Shown in pieces: positions 21,119 through 25,763 of a DNA stretch of 64,000 nt (its first letter is position 1; each line of letters begins with the position of its first letter). The DNA is from Glaciozyma antarctica PI12 (lineage: Eukaryota > Basidiomycota > Microbotryomycetes > Kriegeriales > Camptobasidiaceae). A model generated the notes under the pieces. That model searched no databases, had not been told where the DNA came from, and worked only from the letters and a program-made list of their open reading frames with translations. The DNA is taken from contig KZ627157.1 in NCBI GenBank assembly GCA_002917775.1, positions 678,079-742,078 on the forward strand. Reading direction: 5' to 3'. A program made the position numbers and the translations under genes.

Positions 21119-23216
21119 TCAGCACCCAACCACCTTCGCAATCCTCAACGACCTCATCTTCTCCCTCGCCGACCACCCATGATCGTTCAAGCCCCCCTCA
21201 AACGCCTCCGTCGAATCCTTCACCTCCTTCCCCACTCCACCAACCCCCTTCAACAATGGTACGGCATACTCCCTCAGGTACGCCATTCCTCCCGGGTGTT
21301 CAATGGCATACGACGTCGCGTCCACTGCGTACCCCTCGAGAAGCAGGACCAAAGGCCTCCGCTTCGACTCTTTCCGCTCGTCCATGTCAGCCACGTTCCT
21401 AACGAGCTCCCACATCGTCCAAACCGGCAGCACCAACTTGCGCTTCCTCATTCCCGCCTTCGCTCCACCCCGTGACGGAGATTCCTCGAGGAGCGAATCG
21501 CACTCAGACGACGAACTTGATCCGTACCCGACCGTCGACGATCCCTCCCCTTCGTCCGAAGTAGCATTGGCGTACGAGCTCCAGCGGGCGAACGAGGTGT
21601 CGTCGTGCGGTTCTGAAGATTCGAGGGTTTCGGAACGGAGGGAGAGGACGTGGGAGCGCGCTTTGAGGATCTCGGATTCGGGGGTTTGGTGAATGCGGGG
21701 GACAAAAGGCGTGAAGTGGTGGAGGATGAAGATGGTCCATCTGCGGAGGGAGTGAGTGGGGGCTCGGAGTGACAGTTGCGGGCTGCGACGAACTTGGTGG
21801 GATCCCAATCGAGGTAGCGAGGCCCGTTGCGGTAGTCTCGAGGGAAGGCATGGTGGTAGTTGTGGTTTGCTGGGAAGAAGAGATCGTGAGAGCAGTTCAA
21901 AGCTTCGCAAGTGACAAAACGCACCTTCGCCGCCGGTGAACAAAGCCAGGAACTGCGAACAGCGAGAGGGTTAATGCGCGCGCTGAGCAGAAATCTCAAT
22001 AGAAGCGCGTACGAAGTTCCCTCGAGCTGTCACGTCCTCTGAATAAGACTGATCTCCGAGATAGTGAGCGAGCGAATTGATAAAGAACGTGCAGTGCCTG
22101 GCGAAGGGCTCGTTAGGGCTTGCGCGTTGGAACGAATGAAGGCGATCTCACCAGATGAGAACACGAGCGATGATCTGCAAGAACGGAGTCAGTGAAGCCT
22201 CACCTGGCGCGTTGCAGAAGGAACACTGACGCCTCCCCAAATAAATCCTCCCAGCGTGTCTCCGTAGCTCCATCCAACGAGAGTAGGCGCAACAAATCCC
22301 AGCCCAAGCGTCAAAGGTAGGTAGTGCTTGTGCTGGAATCGAACGACTGCGGTGGAGAGGTCAGGAGGAGAGCTCAATCTTCCGAAACTGAGTACGCACC
22401 TGGATCCGCGTTGAGATCCTTCCGGTCGATCAAAGCCATACGAGGGTAATCTGGCTTGCGGAAGATCCACCCCATGTGCGAATGGTACAATCCCAGCTTG
22501 GCGTCGTAGCTGCGAAGGCGAGCTCGGTATCAGAACGTGCGAGGAGATATCTCCGAATTTCGCAAACGGCCACTCACGGGTCCTGCAGAGCTCAAGGTCA
22601 GCTCATGTTCAACCGCAGCCCATATACGAGAACACACGTACGCTCTCCGTATCCGTGAAGCGATGGTGCAGGCGATGCCGTAGAACCCACCACCTGCGAG
22701 CGAGGCCAGGTCCATCAGCTCCGCCTTCCGCTCTCTCACCACCTCCGTACGCACTTGATAGATCCTTGAAAGCCCAAGCACCCCATCCCTGCCAGCACAA
22801 CGCGTAAAGGGAACGACGCTTGGAAGCTCCGATGGGACCATAGTCGGTGGTAGCCTATCGTGATCCTGCGTGCTCGCATCAGCTCCCTAGCTCTACCCCC
22901 ACTCTACCTGTACTCCTTGAACTCACCCGAAGGTTGCCAGCTGCCATGAAGTGAAGCAGAGCCTGGAGGAACAGCTCATCAGCTCCTCGATCCCCAACCC
23001 CTCGGCACCGCCAGCAGCTCACCACATCGTCCGCGTATCCATCTTCCACCAGGGCGAGAGGTAAAAGATCCCTGCGAGGGCTAGGAGGTGCATCGCTACG
23101 AAGAAGATGGCGTTGCTCCACCAGATCGGAGCGGGGTGGGGAGGATCGGAGGAGATGGCTGTTGCGCCGTTGGGCAGGGCTGCTGGAGGCTTTTGCAAGG
23201 TTGCTGGTGCTCCCAT
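21119..23216 (-). CDS. OLE1: Delta-9 fatty-acid desaturase with C-terminal cytochrome b5 (Ole1 type)
   Basis: ER membrane di-iron enzyme that puts the first double bond into stearoyl/palmitoyl-CoA. The ATG at 23216 gives MGAPATLQKPPAALPNG, followed by a hydrophobic segment (NAIFFVAMHLLALAGIFYL). The three histidine boxes are HRLWSH, RHRLHHRFTD and EGNHNYHHAFP; NSLAHYLGD also matches the family. The C-terminal cytochrome b5 domain has the haem HPGG motif (YAIEHPGGMAYL) and a second His (GGLNDHG). Between the domains is a serine/acidic segment of about 70 residues, and the b5 part has a short Gly/Lys insertion. At least nine introns. Stop codon at 21119-21121. Confidence 0.93.
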
Positions 23217-23559
23217 GGTGGGCGGACTTTGAGGGTTCGTCTAGTAGTTGGTGGGAAGCAGCGAGCGAGTCGATTGAACCTGCCAGCCCAAGTTGAGTGT
23301 CGGGGATCGCCCAGCGGCGCTCGGCCTTTCCTCTCTTTTTCCTCTTCTTTGAGGAGTTATCCTGCTCGTGCAGGCCTGTTTAAACACTTTCCTTACACGC
23401 GCAGCGAGCAGCACCACCTTGAGCGAGCTCGCCAGCCGCCAGCCGCCAGCCCTCCCACGCTGGTCGGCCGGCCCCCTGTCTTCCCTTCTCTCCCTCCTCA
23501 GCAAACAGCAAAGTCTCAGTCCCGCTCACAGCAACATCAACTGCACCTCCGCAACCCCT
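23217..23559. other. OLE1 upstream region
   Basis: About 340 bp between the OLE1 start and the end of the macrodomain-sirtuin gene, both on the minus strand. Pyrimidine/purine-biased, with no coding signal. Confidence 0.5.
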
Positions 23560-25763
23560 CTATTCCAACCCCAAAGTCTCAAAGAAATCCTTCGCCCCCA
23601 TCCTCACTCCCATCGCATTCTCCCCCAACCCAACAGGTACCTCCGGATGCCCCAGATTCACCCTCAACAGCTTCACCGTCCCCCCGTACTTCTCCACCAA
23701 CTGCTCCCCAGGCCACCTCACCACACTTGGGGTATTAAACCCCACCCCCATCTCGAGCAGCAGGACGAAAGACCCTTTCGCTCGGGCAGCGAGGACGGCT
23801 TGTTCGACTTGTTGCTCGTATCGTTCCCTCTGCCCTTGCTGAGGCGTCTCTAGGAAACCCCCGACGCGGAGGTTGAGGAAGACTTCGCCGCCGCATTGAG
23901 GGCAGGATGAGGATGAGGTCGAGTCGATCTTCGGGGATTCGCATGGCGTCGGGTTTGAGGAACGGTCTCGCGCGTTCGAGCGCTGGCATCGAGTCAAAGA
24001 ACGCCATCGGGTTGCACGGCGCAACGCACTGGAAGTACGAGTACGACCCCTGGGGCGTCCAGGTTTGGGCGCGAGAGAAGCCGGATTGGACGAAGACGTT
24101 GTCGGCGTTGGAAGTGAGGACGGTTTAGGAGGATTTGGAGAGGGCAAAAGAGAGGAGGCAGGTGTAGACGGGTGTGGGACCCCAGGTGGTGGCGGTATGG
24201 GCGTGGGCGAGGAGGAAGGCCCATCTGACGAGGGGCTGCGAAGGAGGTCAGCGAGGTTGCGAAGGTGCGAAGAGGAAACGCACGTCGTCGAATTCGTATC
24301 CAATGCTGTGGTAGAGAGTCTGCATGTCGGTGGACTTGAGTAAGTCGGGATAAAGCGTCTTGAAGAGCTCCTTGGAATTGTAATCGAGTCTCATCCCTAG
24401 ATCCTCGCGCACGGCATCGGCGCTCAATCCCGCACCAGCGTGAATAATGACTGCGTCGGATTCCTTCATCCATTCAAGAACTTTCGGCGAGAGAGCGACG
24501 TGTTGAGTGAGAGGGAGAGGCGTGGGGAGGTCGGAGAAAAGGCGGGAGGTGGCGGCGAGGTAGTTGTTCGGATCCGAGGCGGAGAAGAGGACGAAGATGG
24601 CGCGAATGGGAGAGCTGGGGTGGGAAGCGATCCAGTCGTTGACGGTGCGAAGAGCGATGATCGATGCTTCGCTTCCAGGGAAGGCGAAGAGTCCCGTGGA
24701 GATGCAAGGGAACGCCACCGCGTCGATTCCGCCGAGCTGAAAGGAGCGAGGGTCAGATTGCTGTCCTAGATTGGCGAACCGACGAGCTCACCTCCTCCGC
24801 AAGGTCCAAAGAGTTTTGATACGACGCAGCGAGCAGCTCCTCCTCCTCCTTCGTCGGCTTGGCTCCCCGTTCCAGCTTTGGTCCCGCGACGTGAAGGACG
24901 TATCCCGACGGCAGCGACCAAGCTTTCGTGATGATCGGTTCTCCCTCGTTTGCCTCTTGCTCGCCCATGATCGTCGCACAGTCGATTCGAAGTCGAGGAC
25001 CGGCGGCAGCGTGAATAACTGAGGAAAGGAAGTCAGTGCGAGGTTCATTCCGGCTGTGATTCACCGTTCAGGGGGCGGGACGACCCAACGGATACCTGGC
25101 ATCCGTTGGGTCGTCCCGTCGACACCTCTAACTGCGAAGGCGCGACGAACCGTTGTCGGCGCAGAGGTGCGACGGCTAAAAGCAGCCCAACATCGCCGTG
25201 TTCGCAGGGTTGACGATGGCGAGCGTCGGGGATGCGAGCCTCGTAATATCTCCTCGCCAAAAGAAGAGTCGGGAGAAGGTCGAAGGGAGGTCGTCGGAAG
25301 TGAGGGAGGGGAACAGCGCGGCGAGGGAGGGTACGTCGCTGATGGGGACGAGAGGGTCGGGAGATCTCGCCGAACGATGGATGAGGACGGTATCGACTGC
25401 TGAGAGGATGTTGGGAGGGAGGGAAGTCGGTGGGCGGATCGTGAGGAGGTCGCGAAGGAGCTGCTCTCGCCTCGTCGTAGGCAGCCGAGCGAGCTGTGCT
25501 GCCGTGACGAGGGACGACTGGTGCGCATGAGAGCTCCTCCGTTCGTACTCGGTGTAGAGGTGCGTCAAGGCGAGGAGTTGAGCTGGGAGGTAGTCGGATT
25601 CGGAAGGGAGAATGGGATCCGGCTGCGGTAGGCTGAGGTCGACCCTGTTGGCGTAACTGGCGAGTGAGGTGGCTGCTGTCGACGCTGTTGTCGACATTTT
25701 GGATAACGCAGAGGGCAGTTTAAATCCCAAGAGGAGAAGTTTCGCCGGGCGAAGAGGAACCAT
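23560..25763 (-). pseudogene. Zn-macrodomain fused to class-M sirtuin (SirTM), interrupted
   Basis: The ATG at 25763 starts a leader rich in Leu/Lys (MVPLRPAKLLLLGFKL), possibly mitochondrial. A Zn-dependent macrodomain follows: WRGDITRLAS, AIVNPANTAMLGCF, then PSHLCADN joined by a 3' splice to VIHAAAGPRLRIDC, and AVAFPCISTGLFAFP. The family's Cys-His-Cys zinc ligands are all present. The second half is a sirtuin: VIIHAGAGLSADA, TVLTSNADNVFVQSGF, PQGSYSYFQC (Gln where ordinary sirtuins have the catalytic His, as in SirTM), CPQCGGEVFLNLRVGGF and a C-terminus ending TLGLE. Two in-frame stops (TAG 25176-25178, TAA 24125-24127) and a reading-frame change near 23,895-23,940 break it. No GT-AG intron removes them. 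Either a recent pseudogene or sequence errors. Divergent from URM1. Confidence 0.8.
25076..25118. repeat. Perfect inverted repeat (hairpin) inside an intron
   Basis: Arms CGGGACGACCCAACGGAT (25076-25093) and its exact reverse complement (25101-25118) flank a 7-nt spacer, ACCTGGC. It lies inside the intron between the ADN and VIHAAAG parts of the macrodomain. Confidence 0.95.

Follow-up and report, generated by a model that had tools for sequence, protein, structure and literature searches.

The locus described here raises the question of whether Glaciozyma antarctica makes a protein in which a Zn-macrodomain is fused to a class-M sirtuin (SirTM). The sequence-only reading had claimed that the locus encodes such a fusion, and had regarded the product as a working writer and eraser of ADP-ribosylation. 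We analyzed the window, i.e. the whole stretch of 64,000 nucleotides, which lies on contig C12 of the genome (20 Mb, 18 contigs), together with searches of the rest of the genome, of sequence and structure databases and of the literature. The answer that we favour, with a probability of roughly 0.89, is that the locus is a recently inactivated single-copy (unitary) mfs1 pseudogene.

The features of the locus are collected in Table 1. The limits of the exons were placed by eye, using reading frame and homology, and a read-through protein of 656 residues was obtained by putting X at the lesions. The exons follow one another in the domain order of fungal Mfs1, and the motifs comprise a zinc loop (GCF-stop-PSHLCADN), the NAD motifs GAGLSAD and TSNAD, PQG, and the cysteine pairs CVAPC and CPQC. 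The inverted repeat of intron 1, whose 21-nt arms are 95% complementary and 1 nt apart, pairs best among the five inverted repeats listed for the window; the intron folds with a z of -5.3, and a search of the genome with it matched only itself and its own reverse complement. The next gene downstream (window 21119-23219, minus strand) is acyl-CoA desaturase-like, with a cytochrome b5 match of 22.8 bits against a cut-off of 23.7; its histidine motifs, recognised by eye, are presumably those of a desaturase.

Table 1. Features of the mfs1 locus, in positions of the window.
Feature	Position	Strand	Remarks
mfs1 locus, read-through span	25763-23560	minus	four exons, GT/AG introns
Exon 1	25151..25763	minus	N-terminal region and beginning of the Zn-macrodomain, with in-frame TAG
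Intron 1	25019..25150	minus	132 nt; contains strong hairpin at 25076-25118
Exon 2	24792..25018	minus	macrodomain continued; PF01661 match
Intron 2	24737..24791	minus	55 nt
Exon 3	24284..24736	minus	macrodomain end, linker, SirTM start (GAGLSAD)
Intron 3	24236..24283	minus	48 nt
Exon 4	23560..24235	minus	remaining SirTM (TSNAD, PQG, cysteine pairs, C-terminus), with stop and frameshift
Lesion 1	25176..25178	minus	in-frame TAG inside the Cx4HxC zinc loop
Lesion 2	24125..24127	minus	in-frame TAA, four codons before TSNAD
Lesion 3	23905..23911	minus	net one-base frameshift between ...RLDLI and CPQCGG
Point of one missing residue	23854..23859	minus	W (92) or Y (16) in most of the 120 listed relatives

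Homology extends across both domains of Mfs1. Residues 90-633 of the read-through protein matched 8RSN, the crystal structure of the Fusarium oxysporum fusion Foc1Mfs1 (PMC11490716), with an E-value of 5e-95 (phmmer), and further matches were obtained with bacterial Zn-macrodomains and with the SirTM structure 5A3A. The best relative, P0001, is 56% identical to the read-through protein over 95% coverage (E 1.9e-218). Both matches are far stronger than chance would give and bear out the proposal that a Zn-macrodomain and a class-M sirtuin were fused in the ancestry of this basidiomycete locus. When the sirtuin part alone was compared with the PDB, 8RSN and 5A3A were the sole sirtuin chains found at E-values up to 10, and none of the deacetylase sirtuin chains matched within that limit. 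Pfam SIR2 likewise failed to match this part, as it failed to match three intact relatives searched alongside, and an NCBIfam deacylase family gave a weak match (E 2.7e-4; 20 bits, with the cut-off at 243), which is the one sign of general sirtuin kinship. The second domain was thus not placed among deacetylase sirtuins, an outcome that the sequence-only reading had named as refuting; what it has in common with ordinary deacetylase sirtuins is the superfamily.

Among the best 120 of 343 relatives, the motif pattern of the zinc loop was found in 116, that of QG in 113, and both in one protein in 110, so the other outcome named as refuting, two separate genes, did not come about either. At the locus the usual HG is replaced by QG (PQGSY), and Q occupies that column in 115 of the 120 listed relatives. 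The locus thus resembles the Mfs1 proteins of fungi (Foc1Mfs1, 8RSN; Candida albicans mfs1) in domain order, in the residues of the zinc loop, in QG for HG and in the SirTM cysteine pairs, and differs from them in two stops, a frameshift and one missing SirTM residue that is usually aromatic. Both domains are also homologous to those of the bacterial pair (Streptococcus pyogenes SirTM, 5A3A; SpyMacro, 8RSM). In bacteria, SirTM and the Zn-macrodomain are each encoded by a gene of their own, and in some cases the two share an operon with GcvH-L and LplA (PMC4518038), whereas here a single fused locus is found, with no neighbours of the GcvH-L or LplA type on its own contig. As had been noted from the sequence, lipoyl-carrier and ligase genes are absent from the neighbourhood: the matches to GCV_H, to LplA-type proteins and to biotin/lipoyl domains all lie on contigs other than C12.

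Since the fungal fusion was described and named Mfs1 (macrodomain-fused SirTM 1) in 2015 (PMC4518038), the kind of protein is already known. A literature search for Mfs1 with macrodomain returned PMC4518038 and PMC11490716 only, and a search that combined sirtuin, macrodomain, pseudogene and fungi found nothing. On sequence grounds, the locus can be considered a member of Mfs1 by descent and a pseudogene as a gene.

The second part of this statement depends on the three lesions. Although the order of the two domains is right, the stops and the frameshift keep them from standing in a single polypeptide. The Cx4HxC motif of the Zn-macrodomains (PMC11490716) is represented by its C, H and C, with the TAG between the first C and the H; Q, R or K is found at the column of the TAG in 111 of 120 listed relatives, and the surrounding G, C, F, P, H and C are conserved in 117-119 of the 120. 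It may be added that, according to PMC11490716, the macrodomain zinc itself is absent from the 8RSN structure. The TSNAD beside the TAA is conserved in 112-116 of the 120 listed relatives, and homology past ...RIPEDRLDLI resumes only in a different frame, from 23904 (CPQCGG). In S. pyogenes SirTM, mutation of Asn118, Gln137 or Arg192 dramatically reduces activity (PMC4518038). These residues correspond to N474, Q493 and R555 of the read-through protein in the 5a3a alignment, in which the numbering of the PDB chain is offset by a constant 10. The TAA lies upstream of all three, and the frameshift lies between Q493 and R555, so that they do not share one open frame. Taken together, the TAG, the TAA and the frameshift leave neither domain translatable as a whole, from the first or from an internal start, and no internal start gives an intact sirtuin, given that the second stop and the frameshift would still interrupt it. 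The claim that the locus encodes the fusion, and with it that of a working writer and eraser, is consequently contradicted by the frame.

A second ATG in exon 1, at 25697, has A at -3 and, judging from the alignment, is the likelier ancestral start, being nearer than the first ATG to the starts of the relatives. Counted from the first ATG, the window copy reaches a conserved Y...[ILV]DL motif at residue 37; in 17 of 21 aligned relatives this motif is preceded by only 5-10 residues. The other four comprise two fragments (P0013 and P0018), a protein with a different start (P0020) and a Mycena protein with its own long extension (P0014), and give no equivalent leader. The mitochondrial leader of the sequence-only reading is thus left without support in the relatives, since the stretch concerned lies upstream of their starts and hinges on the first ATG.

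If the lesions were local errors of the assembled sequence, the mfs1 gene could still be a working one. The high conservation outside the lesions would fit such errors, and so would one of the lesions, a small indel within a short, repeat-like run of sequence. The other two, however, are stops that leave the frame unshifted, which is an unusual form for an assembly error, and the three fall within about 1.3 kb, yet three other gene stretches checked in the window are clean. The aconitase exon aligned over 354 residues to mitochondrial aconitase (1c96) in one frame. The MOT1-type helicase aligned over 437 residues in an open frame, with insertions of 18, 3 and 1 residues relative to the chain, the longest of which looks like a short intron. 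Maf1 has an open frame of 371 residues and a relative 96% identical to it; its nearest named relative, by list order among the best 120 of 271, is Leucosporidium creatinivorum (67%). General assembly noise is unlikely given these intact stretches, and we consider local errors at mfs1 an improbable explanation.

A far less probable explanation is that the gene works because the lesions are circumvented by unusual splicing, stop readthrough or frameshifting. Nothing positive speaks for it, although the pyrimidine-rich stretch before the TAG resembles a 3' splice site; three separate events would be needed, and any intron excising a stop would cut into the zinc loop or into the stretch ahead of TSNAD as well. 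Equally hard to credit is a truncated product with some function, e.g. the N-terminal region and the beginning of the macrodomain. Exon 1 does stay open between its first ATG and the TAG, but the product would break off in the zinc loop and lack the His and the second Cys ligand as well as most of the macrodomain, and its transcript would be expected to undergo nonsense-mediated decay.

Speaking against the reading as a pseudogene, the sequence outside the lesions has decayed only slightly. For the conservation of columns we used 110 of the 120 listed relatives, after ten had been dropped as lacking a motif, fragments or misannotated. Of 109 columns conserved at >=90%, 4 are changed in the window copy, and of 88 conserved at >=95%, 2 are changed, one of the latter being at the frameshift junction; of the four, residues 525 and 554 are common to the close relative P0241, and the difference at 186 also occurs in 11 of 120 listed relatives. 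Conserved residues are almost untouched apart from the lesions, and the loss therefore looks recent. At columns invariant in 13 relatives, the window copy showed 4 deviations in 124 and one gap, compared with 0-8 in the relatives themselves (leave-one-out); for this count 13 of 21 relatives were used, eight having been dropped by eye as truncated or misannotated. Relaxed constraint in this copy was accordingly set aside, as there was no excess of deviations over the 13 relatives. Third-codon-position GC is 0.73 in mfs1, below that of the stretches of Maf1, MOT1 and aconitase (0.80-0.87), and the lower value may reflect decay or low expression. Under random mutation, each nonsense change would be expected to come with about 23 missense changes, and two stops with so little missense change are somewhat surprising, in numbers too small to decide. 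Substitutions between the window copy and P0241 were somewhat more frequent at variable columns, not significantly so (P 0.065; 137 columns, 17 differences), and with misaligned columns still included P was 0.22 (146 columns, 22 differences). These data fit a young pseudogene and fall short of proving neutral decay.

P0241 is a fragment of 166 residues that is identical to the window copy at 132 of 154 aligned positions (86%). It is in frame across the site of the window copy's frameshift, which is absent there. The residue missing from the window copy 16 codons past the frameshift is also missing in P0241; its loss is thus probably older than the frameshift and is not by itself proof of loss of the gene. 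Moreover, where the 110 relatives used all have glycine (116 of 120 in the full listed alignment), P0241 carries R at one position. Judging from the missing residue and this replacement, the gene of P0241 may also be impaired or degrading. Its short start is uninformative about its upstream part, because exon 4 of the window locus likewise has no in-frame ATG, GTG or TTG before residue 508.

The rest of the genome was searched with an intact relative, the counts of such searches being lower bounds. No second copy of mfs1 was found, and the sole other match was a weak one to an ordinary macrodomain (31%, E 9.4e-4). Contig C3 carries two other macrodomain matches, separated by 13 kb, at 587570-587761 (L003) and 600640-600957 (L001); the first reads NAANRKLLGGGG and has none of the zinc-loop residues. 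Pfam SIR2 gave 13 matches at about seven places, all on contigs other than C12. Among eight other sirtuin loci scanned, the HG motif was found at five (L004, L005, L007, L008 and L009) and the QG motif at none.

Distribution in the Microbotryomycetes was assessed by comparing the lists of Mfs1 relatives (best 120 of 343) and Maf1 relatives (best 120 of 271). The best named Mfs1 matches are from Phenoliferia, Meredithblackwellia and Leucosporidium, and the best named Maf1 matches are from Microbotryomycetes too, so that the relatives of both genes assign the window to this class. The overlap was counted by hand: 30 NCBI-named Microbotryomycetes entries are in the Maf1 list, of which nine are also in the Mfs1 list, namely Leucosporidium creatinivorum, Sporobolomyces salmonicolor, Rhodosporidiobolus ruineniae, Rhodosporidiobolus poonsookiae, Rhodotorula paludigena, Rhodotorula kratochvilovae, Rhodotorula graminis, Meredithblackwellia eburnea and Phenoliferia sp. 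Uapishka_3. Sporobolomyces johnsonii and Rhodotorula glutinis are in the Mfs1 list only. Rhodotorula toruloides and several species of Sporobolomyces and Rhodosporidiobolus are among those without an entry in the Mfs1 list. The assignment to the class was checked for Pseudohyphozyma, Meredithblackwellia, Phenoliferia, the order Sporidiobolales, Leucosporidium creatinivorum and Microbotryum saponariae; Rhodotorula, Sporobolomyces and Rhodosporidiobolus belong to the Sporidiobolales. In the Mfs1 list, named Microbotryomycetes proteins score 483-745 bits and the last row 316 bits, so that a full-length copy of the usual kind should rank among the best 120 of 343. Absence from the list may also reflect a missing annotation, a cluster named for another species or a protein below the length limit of the search. 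The comparison is suggestive of, and does not demonstrate, a patchy presence of Mfs1 in the class.

As known for the family, the ancestral SirTM domain would have transferred ADP-ribose from NAD+ to a target, and the Zn-macrodomain would have removed it by hydrolysis. Present-day translation would stop inside the zinc loop of the macrodomain, and neither half of the fusion is probably made by G. antarctica, so that the writer and eraser activity of Mfs1 would be expected to be absent from this genome. We infer that the organism itself carries the lesions, that the gene was lost recently and that it was dispensable. Of the proposal that placed such a writer and eraser near lipoyl enzymes, the statement that fungal fusions are known stands; its lipoyl side fares less well, as macrodomains from Mfs1 fusions removed ADP-ribose from PARP1 E988Q and not from SpyGcvH-L in the assays described in PMC11490716. 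A lipoyl-carrier target is thus not established for fungi and the lipoyl link is doubtful for the fusions, whose physiological substrates are, according to that paper, still to be identified.

The picture of a working ADP-ribosylation writer and eraser in this yeast is thereby corrected, and the interest of the locus shifts to the patchy, perhaps repeated, loss of mfs1. Deletion of mfs1 in C. albicans improves growth in high hydrogen peroxide (PMC4518038), and patchy loss may for this reason be informative. We suggest, tentatively and as the less likely case, that Mfs1 has been lost repeatedly in the Microbotryomycetes, perhaps with benefit because it restrains growth under oxidative stress, this genome representing one recent loss. 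If the locus is indeed a pseudogene, G. antarctica would provide a natural mfs1-null lineage for comparison with relatives in which the gene is kept, which would be useful for asking what Mfs1 does.
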